A stretch of DNA of 64,000 bases from Daphnia pulex. Its lineage: Eukaryota; Arthropoda; Branchiopoda; Diplostraca; Daphniidae. The position numbers were made by a program, and so were the translations under genes. The notes below the pieces were generated by a model that worked only from the letters and a program-made list of their open reading frames with translations, searched no databases and was not told the origin of the DNA. How positions within the stretch are numbered: position 1 is the first letter of the stretch; each line of letters starts with the position of its first letter. This document shows, piece after piece, positions 99-39,418 of this stretch. The stretch is from the NCBI RefSeq assembly GCF_021134715.1, contig NC_060025.1, positions 124,001-188,000 on the forward strand, in the 5' to 3' direction.

Positions 99-2525
99 TC
101 ACATGACTTGGAGGATTTCAGATGCCTCGAAAGCAGTGCCAGGCAAAAGAATCACTGGAGCTGAAACGTGTCCAGCCTCGACGCAGATCATGTTGGGGTA
201 CTCGTCGTCACCAAAGTCTTGAATTTCCCTGGCCTTTTCAACCCATGGATTCCACACAACTGCATCAATAACAAATAGTGAGTATTTAGTTTCTAACCAA
301 ACAGCCAGTCTGATTTCATGTCTCACCAGTATCGGGGAAGTTGTACTTTTGAATCCTCATCTTCCTGTTGGACACCACGTTGGTGATGATGTGTTCCTGT
401 GGTGTGTTTTGGTACACTCTGTCTGTGTACTCGTTGACAGTCACCACATCTCTGACCTCCTGGTACATGGCCCCATCCCTGGTCTGTTGAATCGTAGAAA
501 AATAGAGATGAGTGTGGGGTACAACATCTAATTAGAAAAGTCTAGATTGTCACCTTGTCGACAAAAGTGCAGCCCTGCAGCCCAGTGATTTGACACCTGC
601 GAACATCAGGGACCTTGAAGTAAGTGTGGAGCAGTAGATTGAAAGAGAAGGTGGCTTCCTTGCCGACATTGTAGACTCCGATGTTAAAGTGCAATTCTTT
701 TTCACGGAGAATGAGCCGGTAGGAGAGGCGGAAAGGAAAGTTCCACATGGACCTGGTCACCTCGTTGTCCACAATGCAGAACATGGCCTCGATATCGCCA
801 GATGGTAATCGTTCGGGCGATTTCTCGACGTGCCAACGAATGACGCGGGCGAATCCATGCTGAGGTCCGTAATTCCACGATCCGAATTGAGCTGGGCAAC
901 CCAAAAAAACAGACAATTAAAACAGTTTTGATGACGAAAAAAAGTTGTTTTTCACGAGAATTTGTTGTAGTTTATTTTTATTTCTTAGGATCTTTTTTGC
1001 CCTGCTGGCCCGAGGATAGTTAAGGAGGAGGGGGGAGACTGCTGAGTGAGTCTGAAGCGATCATCATCCATCATTGAGGATTGACAGGACATGGCTGGCA
1101 CTGCACACAGCACAGTCGAGAGAAGAAGAAAAAAGAGTAGGAGGAGGATGTCTGCCTTGAGCGTCGACCACAAGAGATAGATGGCATGTTGTAACGTGTA
1201 GAACTGTAGACAGTCGGGGGGCGATTAAGGTCAAAGTTAAATAACTTACGGAAAACGAACGGGATGCCTCCGCGGATGGCCTTTTTCCCGTCGAAAACGG
1301 CCTGTTTACTAAGGGAGAAAGAAGAGTAAAAAGGTGGTCATTTAAACGATGGGCGAAAGACAATCAAAATTCAATTTACCTGACGAAAAGTTGCTCCTGA
1401 TTGTTGACTCGCCACGAAACCACCGTAGCGCCTAGAGGTAAATTTATTTTGTTTAAATCATTTCTCTTTTGTTTTCTTCAAGTGCAATAAAATCAAATGT
1501 TATATCTCCATTCCAAACTAAAATATAAAAATAGACAAAAAATACTCGTTTCTCTCCCCCCTCCGTCATATACTTTTTTTGTTCCAGGAGAGGAAGAAAA
1601 AAACTTGGCTGACAACCTTTTGCGCCAGACGCAACATAAAAAAGTGGTGCGTTCAGTTTTTTTCTTCTTTCGGGAAAAAAATAGGAGGGGAGAAAAAAAG
1701 TGGGCGGTTCGAGTTGAAGTGACAAGAGGTTCTCGATCCGCTTCAGCCACCAAATACCCAAACGCATATGTATAATGCAGACTGAATTCAATTGGAATGT
1801 TCTTTTGTTTTTATTCGTGACTCATATAGTTTGTTGCCCAGATGATGACTCTACACAAGGACGGCAATAGGAGCGTGAAAAAAGTAACCGCCAAATGTAG
1901 TACATTACAATTTTAAAAACCATTTAATAATAACTTTCTTTTTTGATATATCAATAGGTATTTGGGCCCGCAACCATTTTCCCTTTTTGTTTCTGGGTTG
2001 GTTATCTGATGTGGTGGTGGCCGGCCACGTATCTTTATTTTTTTGTCGACCAACAAAAAACAACCAAACGACATTATTCGAGGTGCGGGTTGGAAACCGG
2101 TGGCGATCCGAGCGCCACCGCCACAAAAAAACACAACAAACCATAAATAAGGAAAAAAAATAAGGCGGGCTACTATTTTACAACTGACAACTAATACACC
2201 AACCCCACCACTAAGATGAAGAAAAAAAAACCAGTCTCGAAAACCAAACCGATCCGAAAGTCGACACAAAAAATAACCCCAACAATTTCAACATTTCAAC
2301 TGTCAAATTCTACCGAATTGCTTAACTTTTGGTTTAATTCTAGGCCGATTGGTATAGGGAAATGTTGCAAGTGGTTAACTGACCGTGTAAATTGATTGTG
2401 CACGTGGTGTTATTGCCGCGATCGAGGACGACGACGCTAGTGGGCGCGGCGGCCATGTTACTACTACCACTGCCACTGCCGCTCGAGTACATGGCGCAAC
2501 TGACGGGCCGGCACGGCTCCACCAC
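99..2525 (-). CDS. Glucose-6-phosphate 1-epimerase (aldose 1-epimerase/YeaD family)
   Basis: Interconverts alpha and beta anomers of hexose 6-phosphates in the cytosol (family knowledge). Six exons on the minus strand: 2525-2384, 1431-1380, 1308-1250, 891-554, 483-327, 259-99. All joins are GT-AG and in phase, giving 302 residues, a normal length for the family. The family core begins near residue 31 (VVLDRGNNTT, CTINLHGATVVSW). Residues visible at the expected active site are His96 (PQHGFAR), His173 (LLHTYF) and Glu277 (CVEAG). The first about 30 residues are Ser/Gly-rich and poorly conserved, so the start at 2525 is the least certain part. The first intron, about 950 bp, is the only long one. 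The gene is divergent from the FRMD gene. The stop lies 98 bp from the window edge and the gene looks whole. Confidence 0.9.
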
Positions 2526-3569
2526 CTCCTTTTATAACCTCCGCATCTCTCCGTCCCCCTCTCTCTCTTTCTCCCATAGGTTTTTTTCTCTTCTTTTTCC
2601 TGATAATGTCATTTTCTCTCTTTTCTGATTAGTCGTTGGCCATTTGGGGATGGCTAATGCGATTGATGGTCGATTCATTTCGATTTGTTTCTCTGATTGA
2701 TTTGTTGCCCATCGACCAACGTTTCAAACGACAATTAGGAAAAGTTGTTTTGACAACCGCTAGATGGCGAAACACGTCGGGAATGATGACCCGCAAAAAG
2801 ATTAAACTGGACAGAAAAAATTCGATCTTGAAACTTTTGGAATGTTTTATAATTAAAAAGAATAAAAAGTATGTCCGTCTTTGGCAGTAGAGGAGAGCCG
2901 CGGATGAATAAATAAATCGGCCAAACGGCAAGAGTGAGAGACACACACGGGCGAGCCCGGTCGATCGAAGAATTGTGTTCCGGTACGGGTGGGGAGGTGA
3001 AAGTATTTGCGCTTGCGCTGGCCCAGTCGAAAAATGTTTCCCGTTTTTTTCCTTTTTTTTCTTCTTCTTCTGCCCCGGTCGAGAGTTTGCCGAGTTGGTC
3101 GGTCGCCCGTCTCGTCGATCCAGTGGCCGGTTTCCTCTGCTGCAACACTTTTGTGTCGAGTCGTCACAGTTTTGGGATCGCCCAGGAGCCGCAAAAAACA
3201 GACACCCCCCCACCAGAAGAAGAAAAGAAAAAGGGTGGCCATTGTGTGTGTGTGTATGTTGTGTGTGTGTGTGTGTGTGTGCATGTGAGTGTGTGTGGAT
3301 ATTCCAAGGAGAAGAAGAAGAAGAAGGAAGTTTGGGCGACATTTCCGGCCTCTTCTTCTTCAGTGTGGAATCAAAACGTCAATTCAAGTTGTTTCCCCTC
3401 CCCAGCCACTTTTGATATCCACTGGGTTATTTCTCACGTTTGTTTCAATCCGATCGTGATTTTATCCAAAAAAGGAAATTGATGGTCGACTTGATGTACT
3501 ACCCCGTCCAATCGTGAAAAACTTGACAAACACAAGAGGAAAGGGGACCGTCAAAGGGCCAACCTGGAA
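2526..3569. promoter_or_regulatory. Divergent intergenic region between epimerase and FRMD genes
   Basis: About 1 kb separates the start codons of two genes read in opposite directions, so it should hold both promoters and 5' UTRs. I see pyrimidine-rich runs, a TG microsatellite and no further conserved coding sequence. Long open frames on both strands here come from the low-complexity sequence. No TATA box or other element could be assigned with confidence. Confidence 0.5.
3244..3299. repeat. (TG)n microsatellite
   Basis: Interrupted run of TG dinucleotides (TGTGTG... with single ATG and AGT interruptions) within the divergent promoter region. It opens artificial frames on both strands. Confidence 0.9.
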
Positions 3570-6500
3570 ATGTTGAAATTCAGTAGCAAAAGTGACGTCA
3601 ACGCCGAGTGCAAGTGCATCGTGCGGCTATTGGACGATTCCGAAGTCATCGAATGCGACATTCAGGTAAAAAAGAACCAAGTAGCAAAGCAAGGAAGGTG
3701 GGTCACCTCCCCTTTACTATCCACCTCACCCCAACCCTCCTTCTTTACTCCCGTTTCTTCTTCCTTTTCAAATCAATTGGAATCGTGAAAAATGGCCACA
3801 TGAGATTTGTCCAGGATATTGTGTCTTGTCAAATTTGATGGGAAAAATAGATATAACTCTGGTACTGGTCGAATAATATTTCGTCTGAAATGGACTCGGA
3901 TGTGCCCCACACACACGGAGGGAGAGAGAGTGACGGAGGTTGGGCCTTTTTATTGATTGGCTCAGTCCAACCCCTCCCCCACCCCACCCGCACTACCCCA
4001 CCCCACTCGTCCGGTTACCTCACTCCCGAACTGAAGGAAAACGGGAGAAAACTTTTGAGGGTTTTTTAAAATTTCGATTCGAAATGTTTTTCCTGGGAAA
4101 TTTTTAAAAAACTTACAAATGTTGTAAAAACTAATATTAATTAAATTTATTATTTTTTGTCCCAGCCTCGGTGCAAGGCCCAGTACCTGTTGGATTACGT
4201 CTGCGAGCAGCTGGATGTGCTGGAAAAGGATTACTTTGGTCTTCGTTACGTCGATCACCACAAGCAAAGGAAATGGTTCGATTTCACCAAATCAGTGGCC
4301 AATCAAGTCAGAGGTCAGAGAATTCTTTTGATTTATCTTTTTAAAGATTTTAAATGACAGTGTTTGAATATAAAAATAGACGCTCACAATTTGGTGCTTT
4401 GCTTCCGGGTCAAGTTCTACCCGCCGGATCCGATGCGACTTCAAGAAGCCACTCGCTACCAATTGTACCTGCAGTTGAAACGGGACCTCCAGCACGGGCG
4501 ACTCTACAGTCCCGGCCCTGGTCACGACTTGGCATTTCTCGCTGCTCTCTGCCTTCAGGGTATTTCTTGCTTTTCTTAGTTTAAATCGATACTTTTTCTA
4601 TTTTAAAAAACATTTTATTTGGGATTAAAACAGAGGAATTGGGTGACTACGATCCTGAACGCCATCTGCCCGGCTACGTTTCTGAAATGAATTTGGTGCT
4701 AAACCAGTCGGAGAAACTGGAAAATCAGGTGGAAGAATTCCATTCGGGACGGGTCGGCGCACTGGTCGGCATTTCCGCCTCGCAGGCCGTCAACGCCTTT
4801 CTCAAAAAAGCCGCAACACTCGACACTTATGGCGTCGATCCTCACCCAGTCAAAGTGAATAAAAACATTTCACATTTTTTTACTAAAATTCAATTTGATT
4901 TTTCTAATCGATTCAATTTAATAAAAACCAGGATCCCAGAGGAGCTCGGCTATACATCGGGACGAATCACAGCGGAGTGGCCACCTTCTACAACGGACGT
5001 CGGACTCATCACTTCCGCTGGATCGACATTTCCAAGCTCAACTACGAAGGCAAAATGTTTATCATCCATCTCATCATCATGGAGGTATGACTTAATTATT
5101 ACATCATTCCCATTTCTATCCAAACTAATTTCTTCATTTTTCAATTTGGAATTCCAAAAGGATGCCAGAACCAAGGTAACATTTAATTGATCCATTTCAA
5201 TATTAATTCCAAGTCTTAAAAATGTCAAAAACAGAAGAAACACACGGTGGGATTCAAATGCGCCACTTCGTCGGCCTGTCGCCATTTGTGGCGCTACTCG
5301 GTGGAGCAACGCATCTTTTTCACGTTCACGTCGTCGGCGGAAATTCCAGCTGTCGTCACGGGCGGCAGTTTCTTCTCGCGCGGATCCAAAGTTCGTTATT
5401 CCGGTCGGGTGGAACGCGAGCTGGCCCTGGAAGAGGTGGCCCTGCTGGCCGCAGCGGCCGCCTCCAACCAGGACCACCCAGACGGAGTAGGTGGTGAAGG
5501 CCATCCGGGAGCTGACGGGACCTCGTCGTCGTCCGGGGCGACGGGTGGCAGACGCCATCGATCGGCGGCTTACGCCTCACGACGCTCGGCCTCTGAGCCA
5601 ATCCGCGGTGACGATTTCGACGACGACTACGAGGACGACTGTGAGGAGGAGGAGACGGACGATTTTTCCTTCGATCGCCACCGCTCCGGCGAACGCAACA
5701 CTCCCAATGGATCGAGGCGGAGTAGAAATCACGACGACTCGTTGCCAAGGCAACGCCATCACCCCCACGATCAAGACGGTTCGTCTGCTACGACACCAAA
5801 CCACTACAAACAATTTTCTAATCTTTTTTTAATTCAATTTTGATCCTGATTTTTAATTAGTTGGACCTGAAGGACACGACAGTTACGAGGCGTCGTCGTG
5901 CGGGAGCGGAGCCAGTCAGGACGACCGCTCGGATGTGGCCAGTTGGGTGGCGCTGGACCTGCGGGGATTGCCCCGTCACCACCTGCAACACCAACAACAC
6001 CAGCACCACCACCACCACAACAGCAGCAGCAACGGCTACGACACGCTGACGATCGACTCGGATTTCTACGGTTACGCCGGCAGCACGACGGGCAGCACGG
6101 CCGCCGATCCGTCCAACAACAGCTGGTCCCTCCATCCCTCCGACACTCAGGATCCTCATCACTGGCGTGAACGGGACCATTCGGGCAGTCGCCACTCGGC
6201 CTCGCCAGCTCATTACTCTTCTTCTTCGTCGTAAATGATTTCATTTTGACTCTTAAATTCAATTAAAAATGATTTGAATTGGAATTAGGAGGTACAAGGA
6301 CGAACCGTCGGACGGCTGGTTGGAGTCGGTGCCCCGACAGCGACGACGACGAGAGCTCAAACTGTCGGAGCAGGTCCTAAGGGCCGCCATTCCTCTACTA
6401 CCCCCTGGCGGAGGATCGCTCATCCCGGCCGGTCCGTCGCCCGTCGGAGCGGCCGGCAACGCGTTGAAGCGCCACATCCAACCGGCACACCCCTGTAAAA

Positions 6501-30837: not shown

Positions 30838-31278
30838 AAATCGAACAAGACTCTCTTTTCGTTTCCTTACAAAGACAATTTTGTAGTGCCCTGAATGTTT
30901 CATTACAATTCAGTTATGTGTATTCTTGAAATCTTGACCCAGAAAATAAAACATGCATCCCGTTTTTAAATCAACCATGTTCGATTGCAATTTATTTTTA
31001 AAATAGAAAAATGGGCGATAAAGATAATTATTAAATGGAAAATTTACTAAAACAGCCAAAATTAATAATGAAAATAGATGAAATAATATGCTTTTTTTGC
31101 AATTCAATGCTGTTTTTTAAATATGGCAACACTGAGACCTCTGGCTAAGACTCGTCTTGTCGTCCATCTAGAAAATATTGGCAAAAACGTTTCTTTGGTG
31201 TCGATTCCAGTCCAGGTTATCTCTTTTTGTGACAATTCAATTCAGATTTACCAAGATTATTAGTGTCATAACTTCAGA

Positions 31279-31606
31279 ATGAACAAAAAAATGAGCGACA
31301 ATGGGCTGACTAATGTAGAAGAAGTGCGTCTTGGATTGTATCGTGTGAACTGGAGTTTTTCTGCTAAAATGAAGACAAATGTGGGGGCGTACACAACTGT
31401 GTTTGCACTTCGTGGATCCCAGTTTGGTCGCATTTACATAATCACTTACGATTTCCTTTGCAAGACTTTTAATGAAATGGAGCCTTATTATTTCTCCTTC
31501 ACTTTAAAAGAATATTCATCTAGCGAAAGTGATTCAAGTTATTCTCAATTGACTGGAGTGGGAGTTCAAGCTGCACAACCATCAGAGCCAAAACGCCAAA
31601 AGATTG
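31279..31606 (+). pseudogene. 5' half of SPOP-like BTB gene 7, cut by a MULE insertion
   Basis: Starts MNKKMSDNGLTNVEEVRLGLYRVNWSF, the array N-terminal signature, and carries most of the MATH-like region (109 codons) up to PKRQKI. The MULE begins right after base 31606 and the frame stops two codons into it. The 3' half resumes at 38613. Taking the element out and keeping one copy of the 11-bp target gives a continuous 377-residue frame, similar in length to the neighbours. As it stands the gene is interrupted unless the element is removed from the transcript. Confidence 0.85.
31596..31606. repeat. Target-site duplication, left copy
   Basis: CCAAAAGATTG, identical to the copy at 38602-38612. 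It lies within the coding sequence of BTB gene 7 (codons Q-K-I). Confidence 0.9.
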
Positions 31607-31614
31607 GGTAAAAT

Positions 31615-31715
31615 CTATTGCACTCCGGAGTCCGGAGCGCTCTAGTGTCAAAAGTGGCTATTGCACTCCGGAGTCCGGAGTCCTCTAGCGTCAAAAGTGG
31701 CTATTGCACTCCGGA
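31615..31715. repeat. Left terminal inverted repeat of the MULE
   Basis: Two full 43-bp direct units (31615-31657 and 31658-31700, each opening CTATTGCACTCCGGAGTCCG) plus the first 15 bases of a third. Inverted match at 38495-38595 with only a few mismatches. Confidence 0.92.
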
Positions 31716-32013
31716 AAGGAAATATGTAGTACTTTCATTTGGCGACCGATGGCATTCTGTTTCTGTGTTTTGAAATTTGAATGGATTAGATTTGAATTCT
31801 TTGGAAATTCAAATAAAATGTATTTATAACAATCAAATATATTTGAATCTCAATAATAAATAGAAATAGTCAGTGTATAGAAGGAACTTTTATTTCGTTA
31901 TCGTTAACTTAGCTAGAGTACAATGTCCAACATTGAATCAGTACCTTACAATTCAAATTGTAAATATTTATAAACATTTCAATTCAGGGTGATATTTCTT
32001 GTTAACCAAACAG

Positions 32014-32420
32014 GTTGTTAAACACGCTATAAACGCACGACATAGTGAGTCACCCTCTGTCGCCCCCTTACTTGCCTGAAGGTCGAGCCGGAGTTCTCAG
32101 AACGGGGCTTCGAGGGGTTCTTTGTGACCTTTAAACGCATTGACCAACAACTCACTATTTCTGCTGATTGATTCACACGTAACGTGTGATTCAGCTATAT
32201 TACACAGAGATCATTATATTCAAAGTATAAATTTATGTTGTTAAACACGCTATAAACGCACGACATAGTGAGTCACCCTCTGTCGCCCCCTTACTTGCCT
32301 GAAGGTCGAGCCGGAGTTCTCAGAACGGGGCTTCAAGGGGTTCTTTGTGACCTTTGAACGCATTGACCAGCAACTCAAGATTTCTGCTGATTGATTCACA
32401 CGTAACGTGTGATTCAGCTG
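32014..32420. repeat. Left subterminal direct repeat of the MULE (two units, 223-bp period)
   Basis: Two copies of an about 183-bp unit start at 32014 and 32237 (GTTGTTAAACACGCTATAAA...). They are GC-rich in the middle (GCCTGAAGGTCGAGCCGGAG) and each ends in a perfect palindrome CACACGT-A-ACGTGTG within TTCACACGTAACGTGTGATT. Only a few single-base differences separate the copies. Possible transposase-binding or promoter module; that is inference. Confidence 0.85.
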
Positions 32421-32925
32421 ATTTCACGCTATAAACCATGCAATGCCCGTGTCTCTTATTCCAATAAACTAACAGCTAAACACGTCTTTCATATCTTGAA
32501 ACAAAACAATACAAAACTAAGTTAACATGCAGATGCAGTTTACTTTATTATAGTGAGTGTTATAATATCAAAAGACATTTTAACTGAATTGTGAGTGCGA
32601 AAAAATACTTGGTATTTTCGTGTTTAATTTCAATCGGTGCTTTGTCATCACATGAATGAACTGACAATGAAAAAGTAATTGATTTAAGAGGGGGAAAGAA
32701 TTGGCACATGGTGCGGCGTCAATCAAAGATCCTTTAAGAGCGGAATATGGAAGCGCCTTGTCCTTTGATGATGGATTGCTTTGGGTTCCAACGCCGCGGA
32801 GATAATCATAAACAAAGTTAACCACTCCTCTTTTTGGCTACCAGTATTTTGTAACATCTATCTCCCTTATATAATAATGTTGGAAAAAGAATATTCCTCA
32901 ATAGAGTTCAGTGCCTCATCTCAGA

Positions 32926-35900
32926 ATGTCGTTGCTAAAATCACTTGCCTTAAATCAGACTTTTGATAGTAATTCAGAGATTGTAGAGTTTATTAAGCAG
33001 TTAGAGACAGAAAATGTATATTTGCGTCGTGGTCATTGTGAGTCAATTAGTAGTTACAACAATGACCGAAGAAATCAAATCGTACTTGACGAAAAGTTTG
33101 AGTTTAAAAGAATTCAATACATGTGCCCTCATTTTGGTACTCACAAATCACGATCAAAGGGTTCACGACTGAACCAAAATGTGATGCCAAACAATTGTCC
33201 AGTGCAGATTAGATTTGTTTTTAATCCAGTTAGTGAAAAGTTTGAGATCAAGGTCTTGGAGTTGGAGCATAAAGACCACCCTGTTTCTGCGGAACATGTC
33301 AAGACCTATGCAAGAAAAAGGTAAGATTTACTTTTACATTGGTTTCCAAATTTCATTAATGTGCTAGAACTATTTACTTTACATTCCGTGTGATGTAATA
33401 AGGTTTTGTTGTATGTTCGATTAAATGATTGGATTTCATGTTATATATTTCCTGGAATGACCTTGTCGACCTTGTTGCACGTTATTACAGGCATATGAAT
33501 GACGAGGCCCTTAGTTTCGCCAACGGTGCGCTTTCTGCCGGCGCTCAACCGACTAAAATTCGCAAGATTCTGCAAGATAAATTCGGTTCCAATCTCATTA
33601 GCAAGGACCTGATTAATATGAAGCAGAAATTAATAGGTTAGCGAACACACTTAATTTTTGTAAAACCATTTTACTTGAACAAATCAAGGACAACTTTTTT
33701 CTGTCATTAGGGAATTTGGAAGACGATTGGAGCAATTCAGTTAGCTTTCTTGATAGTCTACAACAAGATCCAAACAACGTCGTCAAAGTGCTGCACGACC
33801 CGGAAGGAGAAGTCACCGCTATTTTCGTGCAGCTAGAAAAGCAACGCAAACTGTACAAAATGTACGGCAAAGTCGTCGAGGTAGACGGGACTTACAATAT
33901 TGATCAAGCTGGATTTGCGCTGTATCATTTGCTGATAGAAGACAATAATGGCGATGGTCAACCCGTAGCTATGTTCTTCATTAGAGAAGAGACAACGGAA
34001 GCGATTTCTGAATGCCTGCGAATATTTGCAGAGGTAATGACTGTCTAAATTAGATTTTAAGTGTTTCTTATAATCAAACTTGACTGTACCTACAGAATAA
34101 CGACGTCTCCATGACAAAAGTGACCATATCCGACAAAGACTGCGCTGAGATAGCCGCGTTGGAGAACTGCTTTCCTCATGGGGTTCACATCCTTTGTCAG
34201 TTTCACGCATTGAAGGCCGTAGACGTCTACATAAAGAAACCAAAGGACGGCGAACGCGTAGACAAAGAAAAAATCCACGAAATTATTAAACACTTTCGTG
34301 CGGCTATGTATGCTGAAACGCAGGCTGATTTTGAAACAGCAAAAGCGTACCTGTTGAAACAAGGTGAATCGATAGTTAAAGATAATCTATAGAATGTATT
34401 AAAAATGTGTACATACTTCATAGGTTCCGGACCAGGAAGTATTGCAGCATACTTCGAAAATAACTGGTTCAACATAGCCGACAAATGGAGTAACCTTGGA
34501 CGTCGAAATCTTCCAACGTTTGGTAACAATACCACCAATCGTCTTGAACGGTAAAACACGCTATTAAATTTTCATTTACATCACCGATAACTAAATACCT
34601 GAATTACATTTTAAGATTTCACCACACTATCAAGGATGTCCTCCAGAAAACCAAGCGATTGTCAGAAGTTCTCCGCAATTTAATAGACATCGTTTTGATA
34701 CGCCTTTCTGACCGAAAAATGAAACAGTGCATACGAGAGGTAAAATTCTCCAAGAAGGAAAAGCATCCGTTGATCAAAAAGTTTGCGGACACCATCTCCC
34801 CTTTTGCTTGGGGCCATCTCGAAGCAGAACTGAAAATAATGAAAGAGAATTACAACTTCGTACTTAATGAGGTTAATAAATTGTTTGTTATTTTTTTAAA
34901 TGGATCTAATTTATAAATTCTGCTTAGGAATCATCAACGTACCACATAGTTTCACGCTACACTACGTACAAATTGAAACAAGATCTCACTGGCTGCACGT
35001 GCAAGTTTTTCTTGGATTTTCAACTGCCTTGCCGCCACATTATCAACTTCCACATCAAAGAAAACACCGAAGTTCCAGTGGGATCATTTTCTAATCACTG
35101 GTTAAATGAATGTCTGGAGGTAAAGCAAAGTTAAAATGATTATCGATAACTAAATTTATTTTTTAAACATTTATTTGTTACAAGAATGATGCGGTCGTTT
35201 CCGCAAGCGTTTCATCGCCATCTGGAGTTCAGCGTCCGAAAAAGACCCGGCTGCGTGCAACGGGGAAAAGCCAATATATCATGGCCACTAACGTTTTCCG
35301 TAGGATGGCCGACACGATGAGTGGACTAGCAGCCTCCGACTTCGAAGTCCAATTGCACTTCTTCCTTAACATTCACAAATTAATGAAAGAGGGGAAACTC
35401 CTTCGAGTAATGGAAGACGAGAAGCAGGAGACCGAGAATCCTTCGAACAACTCACTGGTTGATTCTCCGACTGTTGCGGAACGTATTGAAACATCTACAG
35501 CAAGGACCAAGGCAAATATTTAAAACAATCGAACAAACATATGGTATTCTAACAAAAAATACCTTTATAGGTTTTTGCTCAACCTTGGGCATCGCTCCGT
35601 CTTCCCGTTGCCCCTGTTAAAAGAGGCAGGCCAAAACAGGACAAAGGATATTTTACTGCTTACAAAAAGAAGTCGAAGACAACGCGTGACGATGTTTCAG
35701 TGGTGGATCCAGATCCAGATGAGAAGAACGTGAAGCCTAGGAAACGATTGAGAACAGAAAACGTAAGCAAATGTCTTATACATCCTAACAATACGTATAA
35801 TAACTGTACTGTGTTTCTCACTTTTGTTTAGATGGGTGGAATTATGAGCAGAGAGATGGAGGAAGTGCTAATTTTGGCTGAGGAAGAAGAACACATGAAG

Positions 35901-37143
35901 GATTATTATAATCAAGATTCGTCATCACAGCTTCAGGAATTACCTAGTACATTAGAGGTAAACAAGTATTATTAATCCATTGAAAATTATCCAAGTTAAT
36001 ACTAATTGATCTTCAATAGATAACTATCGACGCTCCCATCATACCTACACCCAGCGTAGTTTCACCTGTAAACAAAACAGACGTTCGCATCACCACAGCC
36101 GCTGATGTTCCACCAGTCGATGAAGTGGACGTGTCCATCATTGATCACAACTACACATTGATCACAACTACACCCAGCGAAGTTTCACCTGTAAACAAAA
36201 CGGACATCAGCATCACCACAACCACTGATGTTCCACCTGTCGATGTCACACTGATCACAACTGCATTACCCGATAATTCTGTAGAGGTAACAAAATGATA
36301 TTTGGAAGAATTTCAGAAAAATGATTCGAATTTCCTTACTTCCTTTAATAGCTTGTGTCTTCGACTGATGGTTGCCTCCGAAAAAACCGAAATAGACGGG
36401 ACAGGAGTAAACAACCCTATCTTTTCTTGGACAAGCCGCAAGTATTAACAAAGACGAACAAACTCATGTCAGGCGACATCAACAAGGCGCAGGCAATCCT
36501 GAAAAAGCAACATCCAGAAATAGGTGGTCTGTTCTGCTGTACAATTGGAGGCAGCCTTGAATTCCCCCGAGCGCAGGGCGATCAATGGTTGCAGATCGTT
36601 CATGACGGATCGGATCACTGGGTATTAGTTGCCAAAGGGTTTATTCAACGTGAACATGTACTGGTGTATGACAGCAGTCCCGGCAATCCATGGAGAAACG
36701 AGCATGTCCTAAGTTGTATGTCCAGTCTCCTCCAATCACCTGAAAAGGAAATGACATACATCATCAAAGATTGTCAACGGCAGAGCAATGGGTATGATTG
36801 CGGGGTATTCGCGATTGCTTTTGCTACGAGCTTGGCATTCGGAGAAGACCCTGCAAAAAGAATGTATGACCCAAAAAAGTTACGCCCTCACCTTATTCAG
36901 TGTATGGATTCCGGCGAACTAACTCCATTCCCATCAGTTGAAAGTCGTGCAACAAGGACTCACGAGACTGTCGAAGCAGAATTATTGTATTGTACCTGTC
37001 GCAGGACAGGCTGGGAGAAAAATGGATTTGAGTTTATCGGATGTGACACGAATGGTTGCGACGGTTGGTTTCACAAAATGTGCATCAATAATTGTCCTAA
37101 AGATATGAATGATAAATGGTTTTGTATTAACTGTCAATTGTAA
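32926..37143 (+). CDS. MULE transposase with SWIM finger, Ulp1/C48-like protease and PHD finger
   Basis: Twelve exons: 32926-33320, 33491-33636, 33711-34033, 34096-34363, 34424-34550, 34616-34871, 34928-35119, 35185-35511, 35571-35762, 35832-35957, 36020-36286, 36352-37143. All are in phase and give 1136 residues. Domains in order: a CCHH zinc DNA-binding module (Cys67, Cys91, His115, His118; FLYWCH/GCM-like), a MULE DDE domain with Asp239 (EVDGTYNID), Asp301 (ISDKDCAE), a Cys322-x2-His325 pair and Glu419 (NTTNRLERF), and a SWIM finger (Cys528, Cys530, Cys540, His542). A Thr/Pro-rich linker follows (about 785-873). Then come an Ulp1-like cysteine protease with His962 (SDHWVLV), Asp980 (VYDSSP), a Gln near 1015-1017 and Cys1023 (GYDCGVFA), and a C4HC3 PHD finger (Cys1087-Cys1134). 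Intron 8 needs a GC donor (AAG-GCAAAT). If that intron is not spliced, translation ends at 35523 and the protease would be separate. Confidence 0.85.
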
Positions 37144-37439
37144 CTGTCTCAAATAAACTTACTGTACAAAGAAATGTTGCTTATCACCATTCGTCCGTTT
37201 TCCCGCGCATACACCGACCAAGACACTGAGCAGCGTGCAAATAACAGCGGTGTCCTCACGAGTTTTCTATCGAGAAGACATGGCGACCTGGTCGTTTCCT
37301 TTTGATACGATCTACAGTCGATATAAGAGTTATTTTGACTTGGAGGTTGTAGGAAATTAGGCGTAAATCAACTACCATTGGCAGAATACATGGCCTAGCC
37401 AAAGTCATAGTAAATGACATCATTATGACTGGATGAAAG

Positions 37440-38345
37440 TCGAGGATTTTGGGATCAATAATGTTGGAGAATCACCATGTACAGCAGAAATTTATTTCCT
37501 ATCATTCCCTCTTCATTAACACACCTATAAATGAGAAATAAGCATTGTTAATCAAACTAATTTCAAACACAATGTTCTATGAACCTGGTTACAATCAGAA
37601 TGCCATCGTAGAGTGTATGGCCTGCTGGAAATCACCAAGTACAGCAGAGATTTAATTGCAATCATTCCCTCTTCATTATCACACACCTATAAATGAGAAA
37701 TAAGCATTGTTAATCAAACTAATTTCAAACACAATGTTCTATGAACCTGGTTACAATCAGAATGCCATCGTAGAGTGTATGGCCTGCTGGAAATCACCAA
37801 GTACAGCAGAGATTTAATTGCAATCATTCCCTCTTCATTATCACACACCTATAAATGAGAAATAAGCATTGTTAATCAAACTAATTTCAAACACAATGTT
37901 CTATGAACCTGGTTACAATCAGAATGCCATCGTAGAGTGTATGGCCTGCTGGAAATCACCAAGTACAGCAGAGATTTAATTGCAATCATTCCCTCTTCAT
38001 TAACACACACCTATAAATGAGAAATAAGCATTGTTAATCAAACTAATTTCAAACACAATGTTCTATGAACCTGGTTACAATCAGAATGCCATCGTAGAGT
38101 GTATGGCCTGCTGGAAATCACCAAGTACAGCAGAGATTTAATTGCAATCATTCCCTCTTCATTATCACACACCTATAAATGAGAAATAAACATTGTTAAT
38201 CAACTAATTTCAAACACAATGTTCTATGAAACTGGTTACAATCAGAATGTCATTGTAGAATGTATGGCCTGTTGGAAATCACCAAGTACAGCAGAGATTT
38301 ATTTCCTATCATTCCCTCTTCCTTTATGCACACCATAAATATTAA
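37440..38345. repeat. 162-bp minisatellite near the right end of the MULE
   Basis: About 5.5 tandem copies, period 162 bp (the anchor ACCTATAAATGAG falls at 37523, 37685, 37847, 38009 and 38171). The inner copies are nearly identical; the outermost two have diverged more. No coding potential. The near identity points to recent amplification. Confidence 0.93.
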
Positions 38346-38494
38346 ATGTTAATCAAACCAATTGACTAACGAGAAATTGCGAATCCAATTGAACGAGGCA
38401 ATTGCGAAGAAAGAGGCAAAAAGTTTTAACGAGGTGATGAGAGTCAAAACACAGAATCAGTCGTTATTTGATTTGCCATTCGTCGCCATAAATT

Positions 38495-38595
38495 TCCGGA
38501 GTGCAATAGCCACTTTTGACGCTAGAGGACTCCGGACTCCGGAGTGTAATAGCCACTTTTGACACTAGAGCGCTCCGGACCCCGGAGTGCAATAG
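38495..38595. repeat. Right terminal inverted repeat of the MULE
   Basis: Reverse complement of the left repeat, ending GGAGTGCAATAG. It holds the same 43-bp units in opposite orientation. Confidence 0.92.
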
Positions 38596-38601
38596 GCGTG
38601 A

Positions 38602-38612
38602 CCAAAAGATTG
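38602..38612. repeat. Target-site duplication, right copy
   Basis: CCAAAAGATTG, identical to 31596-31606, immediately followed by the resumed BTB reading frame (ATGAAGCATCAG). Confidence 0.9.
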
Positions 38613-39418
38613 ATGAAGCATCAGTTTCATCCCAAGTGACAGAACGTGAAAAGTTACCTCCACTTAAAGTTTCTTTAGACAATGGAGACAATTTCTTATT
38701 CATGGGAGCAGAATTCAACCAGGTAAACTCCAAGCTGTGGGAAAAACGCATATTCAGCAAAGATAATCCGAAAAATGTTGCTTTGTGGATCGATTTTGGA
38801 AATAGTGAGTTGAACGAAAACAAAATCGTGAAAGGTCTGGCTGGAATGTTCTACAGTCAAACTCTATGTGATGTCCATTTTCATTTTAAAAATGGGCAGA
38901 CGATCGGTGCTCATGTGATAGTCCTCTCAACTGGAAGTCCCGTATTCGCCACCATGTTCCAGTCCAGCTTCATCGAGTCCAAAACAAGGATAGTCAACAT
39001 TGAAGATATTGAGCCCGAAGTATTCAGACAGTTGCTCATTTGTCTGTACACGGGAAAAGCTCCAAAAATGAAGGAGAATGGTCTAGCCCGGCAGCTGTAT
39101 GAAGATGCCGATAAATATGGTATCGAGAACCTCAAGAAAGAGTGCGTTGAAGAATTGCTCAATCAACTGTCGGTCGGAAACGCCATCGAACTGTTGATTT
39201 GGTCCGATTTCCACTCAGCCACGAAACTGTTTAAAAGCACTCTGAAGTTTATAGCAAAAAATTTCGCTACTCTCGTCTCAAAACCTGAATGGATGGAAAT
39301 GATGAAAAATCGTCCGGATTTGTGCCTCAAGGCTAACCAGAAAATAGCTCAACGGATGAAACACGGGCAGTTTCCTTACTCCAAAGAATTCGAACAAGAT
39401 TCTGATGACATAGCATAA
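38613..39418 (+). pseudogene. 3' half of SPOP-like BTB gene 7, downstream of the MULE
   Basis: Continues DEASVSSQVTEREKLPP, then BTB (TLCDVHFHFKNGQTIGAHVIVLST, SPVFATMFQSSFIES, CLYTGKAP) and the 3-box/BACK-like tail (AIELLIWSDFHSATKLFKS), ending DSDDIA. No stops or frame changes are seen in this half, so the insertion is probably young or the gene is still used. The first in-frame ATG downstream of the element is at 38702, which would start just before the BTB domain. Confidence 0.85.

Follow-up and report, generated by a model that had tools for sequence, protein, structure and literature searches.

An intact MULE of Daphnia pulex whose predicted transposase carries a C48 protease and a PHD finger

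A host gene in the window, the 64,000-nucleotide stretch of Daphnia pulex DNA that we analysed, is interrupted by an insertion of about seven kilobases that seems to encode a DDE transposase, a cysteine protease and a PHD finger. The locus raises the question of whether these domains belong to one mobile element and one protein, and of what a transposon would do with such a protease and finger. Anatomy, recent movement, conservation and the predicted protease fold can all be read from the sequence, and they point to an intact, very young animal MULE with protease and PHD finger, for which ends, TSDs, shortened derivatives and the empty site are all known. Diverged relatives with the same domain order occur in the same genome.

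Anatomy and recent movement

The insertion and its surroundings comprise the following features.

31264..31606, + strand: interrupted host BTB-type gene, 5' part
31598..31606, no strand: left 9-bp TSD, AAAAGATTG
31607..38603, + strand: complete MULE, 6997 bp, termini GGT...ACC
31607..31717, + strand: 5' TIR with 2.3 copies of a 43-bp unit
32014..32419, no strand: 223-bp direct repeat, 1.8 copies, in the 5' non-coding part
32926..37143, + strand: transposase gene, 12 exons, 1136 aa, rebuilt gene model
37465..38340, no strand: 162-bp minisatellite, 5.4 units, ahead of the 3' TIR
38493..38603, - strand: 3' TIR with 2.3 copies of a 43-bp unit
38604..38612, no strand: right 9-bp TSD, AAAAGATTG
38613..39418, + strand: interrupted host gene, 3' part with the BTB domain

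The sequence-only reading had placed the element at 31607-38601; its start stands, and the true end lies two bases further on, at 38603. The TIR arms are 114 bases as called and complementary at 94%, and the TSD is within the 8-11 bp expected of the MULE superfamily, in which long TIRs are common but not universal, as is the SWIM finger. The empty site of the host BTB gene forms a single 382-codon frame, within which the MULE was inserted.

Searching the genome (133 Mb, 13 contigs) recovered three full-length copies in all. The sequence-only reading had looked to other copies with the same gene at different target sites for support, and two are present, at unrelated sites and each with its own TSD. 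In a global alignment the three differ by 2 substitutions and one 162-bp repeat unit, the window copy having one minisatellite unit more than either of the others, and none of the differences falls within exons. The TSD is 9/9 in two of the three copies and 8/9 in one. Because the flanks differ and each copy has its own TSD, we attribute the copies to transposition and reject segmental duplication as their source. The earlier view of an intact MULE is supported, and its movement was recent. Short non-autonomous copies also match the 5' non-coding part with the 223-bp repeat. Of 40 TIR matches, 6 come from the full-length copies, 22 from 11 tested pairs and 12 lie outside these pairs; among the 11 short-copy pairs, 10 have a TSD of 9/9 and the ends of the eleventh were not found.

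The predicted protein and its possible roles

The gene was rebuilt with the exons and domain spans below.

32926-33320, 33491-33636, 33711-34033, 34096-34363, + strand: exons 1-4
34424-34550, 34616-34871, 34928-35119, 35185-35511, + strand: exons 5-8
35571-35762, 35832-35957, 36020-36286, 36352-37143, + strand: exons 9-12
32926..33320, + strand: exon 1, N-terminal part with CCHH finger and a ZSWIM3_N match below cut-off
33884..34548, + strand: span of the DDE triad Asp239, Asp301, Glu419, exons 3-5 including introns
34994..35038, + strand: SWIM motif Cys528-Cys530-Cys540-His542, exon 7
35571..36286, + strand: linker, exons 9-11; a pair of SUMO-interaction-like motifs around residues 720 and 754
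36352..37143, + strand: exon 12, C48 protease (His962, Asp980, Gln1017, Cys1023) and C-terminal PHD finger (Cys1087-Cys1134)

The introns are GT-AG in 10 of 11 cases and GC-AG in one (35512-35570). This model bears out the twelve in-phase exons and 1136 residues proposed earlier, and all 12 catalytic or metal-binding residues that we checked sit at the positions first assigned to them. A chance reading frame was rejected because the exons are identical in the three copies and the domain order is repeated in a diverged family.

Pfam matches above the curated cut-offs were obtained with the window protein for ZSWIM1-3_RNaseH-like (4.6e-26), MULE (1.3e-14, 54.8 vs 27.6 bits) and Peptidase_C48 (4.9e-5). 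Matches to ZSWIM3_N (4e-5), SWIM (0.018, 15.0 vs 19.6 bits, with the CxC..CxH motif present) and PHD (E 0.01, or 0.0011 for exon 12 alone) fell below them, so that the domain check proposed with the sequence-only reading supports MULE and Peptidase_C48 and leaves SWIM and PHD under threshold. Among five relatives scanned in the same way, C48 exceeds its cut-off in four and PHD in one (L012, 28.7 vs 24 bits). The family profile finds solved PHD fingers at 2.2e-6, and the finger resembles H3K4me3 readers. The best structural matches of the modelled protease are SENP and Ulp1 enzymes; the model displays a CE-clan fold with His, Asp, Gln and Cys, and the protease is predicted to have the SENP/Ulp1 fold. 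Gln1017 lies six residues ahead of Cys1023, which we take to be the usual position of the fourth catalytic residue in Ulp1 proteases. The SIM-like motifs of the window linker are absent from both relatives tested.

We lean, by a small degree, towards an autonomous, very recently mobile MULE whose PHD finger would hold the transposase at open chromatin while the protease removes SUMO, aiding escape from repression or repair. A single protein would bind the element ends and carry out cut-and-paste through its RNase H-fold DDE domain with the SWIM finger, and the C-terminal exon would supply the predicted SENP/Ulp1-type cysteine protease and the H3K4me3-reader-type PHD finger. The finger would keep the transposase at promoter-like open chromatin, and the protease may strip SUMO or a SUMO-like modifier from the transposase or from nearby silencing or repair proteins, with the outcome that the element evades repression or finishes repair. 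Attachment to the ends and to H3K4me3, the choice of SUMO as substrate and any influence on silencing or repair are inferences, as are the functions of protease and finger, a chromatin role included. A bolder version, which we put forward tentatively and hold to be clearly less probable, is that a fused, chromatin-directed de-SUMOylase has been kept over several diverged MULE lineages, its PHD finger leading to H3K4me3 promoters and its protease stripping SUMO, so undoing silencing and choosing open sites.

The protease could instead serve repair or cell-cycle control, taking SUMO, NEDD8 or ubiquitin off repair factors during or after excision, with silencing unrelated. This is near the printed proposal for Ulp1/OTU domains of transposases (PMC2836005), and the modelled fold is equally compatible with SENP, NEDP1 and deubiquitinases; alone, however, it leaves the fused H3K4me3-reader-like PHD finger unexplained, and we think it rather unlikely. 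Still less probable is self-processing of the transposase, in which the protease would cleave the linker of the long protein; the structural matches to SENP and Ulp1 enzymes speak against it.

Relatives and the protease-PHD exon

A diverged family in the same genome, 39% identical to the window element over the C48-PHD part, has ends and a 9-bp TSD of its own, and its open frames give the order DDE-SWIM-C48-PHD. In the C2 family a single frame of 695 aa runs unbroken from SWIM to PHD, with a possible intron inside seen by eye only; a minisatellite ahead of the 3' TIR was not reported in the C2 family. Both C48 and PHD are under purifying selection. A separate gene within the element, with exon 12 encoding a second protein, seems improbable to us: the C48-PHD part does lie wholly on this single exon, but exon 12 starts in phase 0 and joins exon 11 in phase in the window, and the unbroken C2 frame points the same way, though the possible intron leaves it short of proof. 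The in-phase gene model and the order in relatives both favour the original claim that DDE, SWIM, C48 and PHD form one predicted protein.

The C48-PHD part also appears not to be a stray host gene, because the diverged family has its own ends, TSD and the same order and because both domains are under purifying selection; with the in-phase exon join, this agrees with its first description as part of the transposon rather than a captured neighbour. That the exon is a host gene picked up as a useless passenger is very improbable, even though gene fragments can be taken up by MULEs (PMC6446971), given the shared order in diverged relatives, the selection and a tree in which the element proteases split from the other C48 of this genome with support 100/99 (8 TE rows vs 7 others, with a warning of long branches). 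No host gene is nested among the element proteases for the 7 taken of 32 genome matches.

The loci list used 80/80, 55/55 and 47/85 rows from three match listings, the 38 rows left out of 85 being, by eye, extra pieces of loci already included. At the C12 loci the DDE-SWIM part is close (pN 0.03-0.06), one locus has a diverged protease (pN 0.22, pS 0.74), and at both the element match spans positions 2395 to 4107 at 89-95% identity; we read these loci as probable mosaics. Linker pN is 0.46 for L008 (202 codons) and 0.34 for L004 (53 codons), and a faster-evolving linker is suggested by these two comparisons only, since a young C12 piece (L005) gives just 0.04 over 200 codons. A pattern search for relatives outside the source genome, which covered no other animal genome, gave 0 matches in viral contigs and 17 in genome contigs, 0 of them relatives. 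The DDE-SWIM-C48-PHD combination in the predicted protein is both real and old in this genome.

Comparison with known systems

The idea that a DDE-SWIM-C48-PHD fusion would be new to animals at large is not supported, as Ulp1-bearing Mutators and an Ulp1-PHD alignment that takes in Mutator transposases were already printed in 2010 (PMC2836005). According to that paper, which cites Repbase Reports of 2008 and 2009, Mutators of hydra and lancelet carry Ulp1 domains, so protease-bearing animal Mutators are already on record. These MuDR elements, compared here by description only, likewise combine a MULE DDE and C48 in one element. The Figure 1e legend describes an alignment in which Ginger1 and Mutator transposases are compared over their Ulp1 and PHD domains, the PHD carriers among the Mutators not being named in the passages concerned. 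For this architecture in a crustacean, no paper was found among the matches listed, most subscription journals, Repbase and Dfam being outside the scope. The guess made in PMC2836005 that Ulp1 domains serve transposition is now directly testable.

Rehavkus, whose hosts include arthropods, is listed in Table 1 of PMC6446971 with a PHD finger, a 9-bp TSD, a TIR of 26-400 bp, one ORF and a minisatellite before the 3' TIR. The window element, with transposases compared by description only, shares the TSD, TIR length and single ORF, the 162-bp minisatellite at 37465-38340, and the finger, though the Pfam PHD match is below cut-off. The repeat unit of Rehavkus-1_TC is 164 bp and is said to sit in the inverted termini, whereas the window minisatellite precedes the 3' TIR; the passages of PMC6446971 and PMC10218199 on Rehavkus mention no protease, whereas the window element has C48. 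The element connects two entries that these papers treat separately: animal Mutators with an Ulp1 domain, and Rehavkus, which has the PHD finger and the minisatellite.

Phantom, to which the Daphnia pulex Mutators of PMC2884549 belong, is also an animal MULE group with crustacean hosts, but Table 1 of PMC6446971, a comparison by description only, lists neither protease nor PHD for it. Ginger1, above all Ginger1-9_HM, has a transposase with C-terminal Ulp1 and PHD as well (Table 1 of PMC2836005), but is not a MULE, having a Gypsy-integrase-like DDE and a 4-bp TSD where the window element has 9 bp. The plant Kaonashi/VANC elements are MULEs with an Ulp1-like domain, strongly conserved in eudicots, and Ulp1-bearing plant MULEs have been linked with escape from silencing (PMC13317346). 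In those non-TIR elements the Ulp1 gene is one of three genes, whereas the window holds a TIR element with one fused protein; if the de-SUMOylase reading were true, this MULE would represent in animals, and within a single protein, what the Ulp1-bearing VANC/Kaonashi anti-silencing system is in plants.

Element ends, insertion site and transposase gene

The Mutator-like transposon (MULE) in the window is complete: its inverted ends are 94% complementary across the 114 bases called, and the target site duplication (TSD) AAAAGATTG lies on either side. Taking out the element and one TSD copy in silico left an empty site that reads as a single open frame of 382 codons, with 41% identity to a neighbouring BTB frame over 346 columns. 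We therefore conclude that the element interrupts one host gene in a tandem array. This array of BTB/POZ-like frames occupies 17367-45756; Pfam confirms BTB in two of them, and the remaining frames are alike by eye.

31607-38603: complete MULE, termini GGT...ACC
17367, 19807, 22149, 24411, 27085, 29734, an interrupted one and 44584: positions of BTB/POZ-like frames, plus strand

Twelve exons join into a single phase-consistent frame of 1136 residues, with GT-AG borders in 10 of 11 introns and GC-AG in one. The sequence-only reading had described a MULE protein carrying a C48 protease and a PHD finger; this observation is right, with its named residues in place in the rebuilt protein, and the element is unusually well preserved. 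ZSWIM1-3 RNaseH-like (4.6e-26), MULE (1.3e-14) and Peptidase C48 (4.9e-5) score above Pfam cut-offs, and ZSWIM3_N, SWIM and PHD below; among five relatives scanned, C48 exceeds its cut-off in four and PHD in one. We accept the PHD finger as genuine, since a 13-row profile matches the fingers of SPP1 (2.2e-6), PHF2, PHF8, BPTF and ING2, many of which are H3K4me3 readers.

Copies and movement

Two further full-length copies occur in the host assembly (133 Mb, 13 contigs), at C3:125514-132348 and C5:259027-265861; their flanks are unrelated, and each has a 9-bp duplication of its own, GTTTTTTTC (9/9) and ATCCACTTA/ATCAACTTA (8/9). The three full-length copies differ at 2 positions and by one 162-bp repeat unit, with 0 of 3411 exon bases differing: the window element has moved lately. 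Among shorter copies, a 9/9 duplication flanks 10 of 11 pairs of matching ends (the eleventh pair's ends were not found); nine of these ten copies measure 1.6-2.0 kb and one 5.7 kb. They retain the non-coding 5' portion together with the 3' end, and no coding-part alignment occurs among the up to seven listed per copy, a comparison covering all but 2.4 kb of the 5.7-kb copy. Copies and duplications together show, indirectly, cut-and-paste movement.

A 223-bp direct repeat (32014-32419), matched in short non-autonomous elements with additional partial copies, contains the palindrome CACACGT-A-ACGTGTG and is possibly a transposase binding site.

The protease-PHD part and its diverged relatives

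A six-frame genome search with exon 12, which encodes the protease and PHD finger, gave 80 matching pieces in 62 clusters. A DDE match in the same orientation lies no more than 6 kb upstream in 15 of 62, vs 1 downstream and 1 on the opposite strand; the 15 include three window-element copies and four near-identical places on contig C8, so independent cases are fewer. The other 47 have no DDE match in reach. A SWIM signature precedes 13 of 30 protease loci (three of them window-element copies, some loci overlapping) and is found downstream or on the opposite strand in none; that at L011, among stop codons, may be a chance match. Judged from sequence, protease and PHD finger form part of the transposon. 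The C8 places, decayed relatives within 2.04-2.13 Mb (2045863, 2089146, 2103713, 2125699), probably reflect local segmental duplication.

The relative at C2:5606912-5612757 is the clearest: it spans 5846 bp on the minus strand, bears inverted ends of 138 bp (88%) and is flanked by a 9/9 duplication, ATTTTTTTC. Its frames run in order 377 aa with a MULE match (1.2e-7), 126 aa and 695 aa, the last reading SWIM, C48, PHD (SWIM by motif reading only, in open frames alone). Its C48-PHD part shares 39% identity with that of the window element in the six-frame search and 35% in alignment.

Against diverged relatives, pN and pS are 0.22-0.26 and 0.72-0.84 for C48 (loci L005, L008, L007, L004), and 0.24-0.41 and 0.55-0.90 for PHD (L008, L007, L004). 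In the SWIM-linker stretch pN is 0.46 in L008 and 0.34 in L004; L005, with a young mosaic as its front half, has pN 0.04. Both domains have changed far less than silent sites; only this direction is safe, because synonymous sites are near saturation and the relatives carry stops.

Two C12 loci share a window-like piece (element 2395-4107, 89-95% identity), adjoining a much more diverged protease at one of them, and an 1184-bp protease-carrying piece is repeated at 99.8% (L005, L006, L066, L070); halves look to have been exchanged between element lineages. On C2, matches of different queries at 10.90-11.04 Mb recur at 11.09-11.23 Mb, offset by exactly 194,000 bases, suggesting either an exact duplication of a large segment or an artefact of assembly. 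At C3:5028700-5032326 (L025 and L074) a C48 frame adjoins a 448-aa frame that we take to resemble a P-element/THAP9-type transposase, perhaps another transposon class carrying this protease.

Possible function and known systems

In the PHD finger, Tyr precedes the first Cys and Trp precedes Phe-His, matching the ING4 row; in ING4 these are part of the methyl-lysine cage. Two SIM-like motifs lie in the linker; 30 of 20,000 shuffles have as many, though neither of two relatives tested has them. The role of the C-terminal part is inferred. We think the best single reading is that the PHD finger would target the transposase to chromatin, where the protease would de-SUMOylate locally; alternatively, the part would serve repair or self-processing.

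The sequence-only reading named no such single-protein fusion in a crustacean; this kind of element is already known. Among the papers listed in literature searches, which reached few subscription journals and neither Repbase nor Dfam, none was recognised as treating the DDE-SWIM-C48-PHD architecture in a crustacean. The value here lies in young intact copies, a clean empty site, diverged relatives of the same domain order and a testable function. According to a survey of 4268 arthropod genomes, MULE transposases contain mainly DDE and zinc finger domains (PMC13359780). The 2010 Ginger paper (PMC2836005) reports that Ulp1 is encoded not only in plant Mutator transposons but also in those of hydra and lancelet. 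It assigns both Ulp1 and PHD to Ginger1-9_HM, and one of its figure legends describes aligned Ulp1 and PHD domains from Ginger1 and Mutator transposases. Table 1 of PMC6446971 lists for Rehavkus PHD, a 9-bp TSD, TIRs of 26-400 bp, one ORF and a minisatellite; the repeat unit of Rehavkus-1_TC measures 164 bp. The window element has the structural traits listed in that table, a likeness by description.
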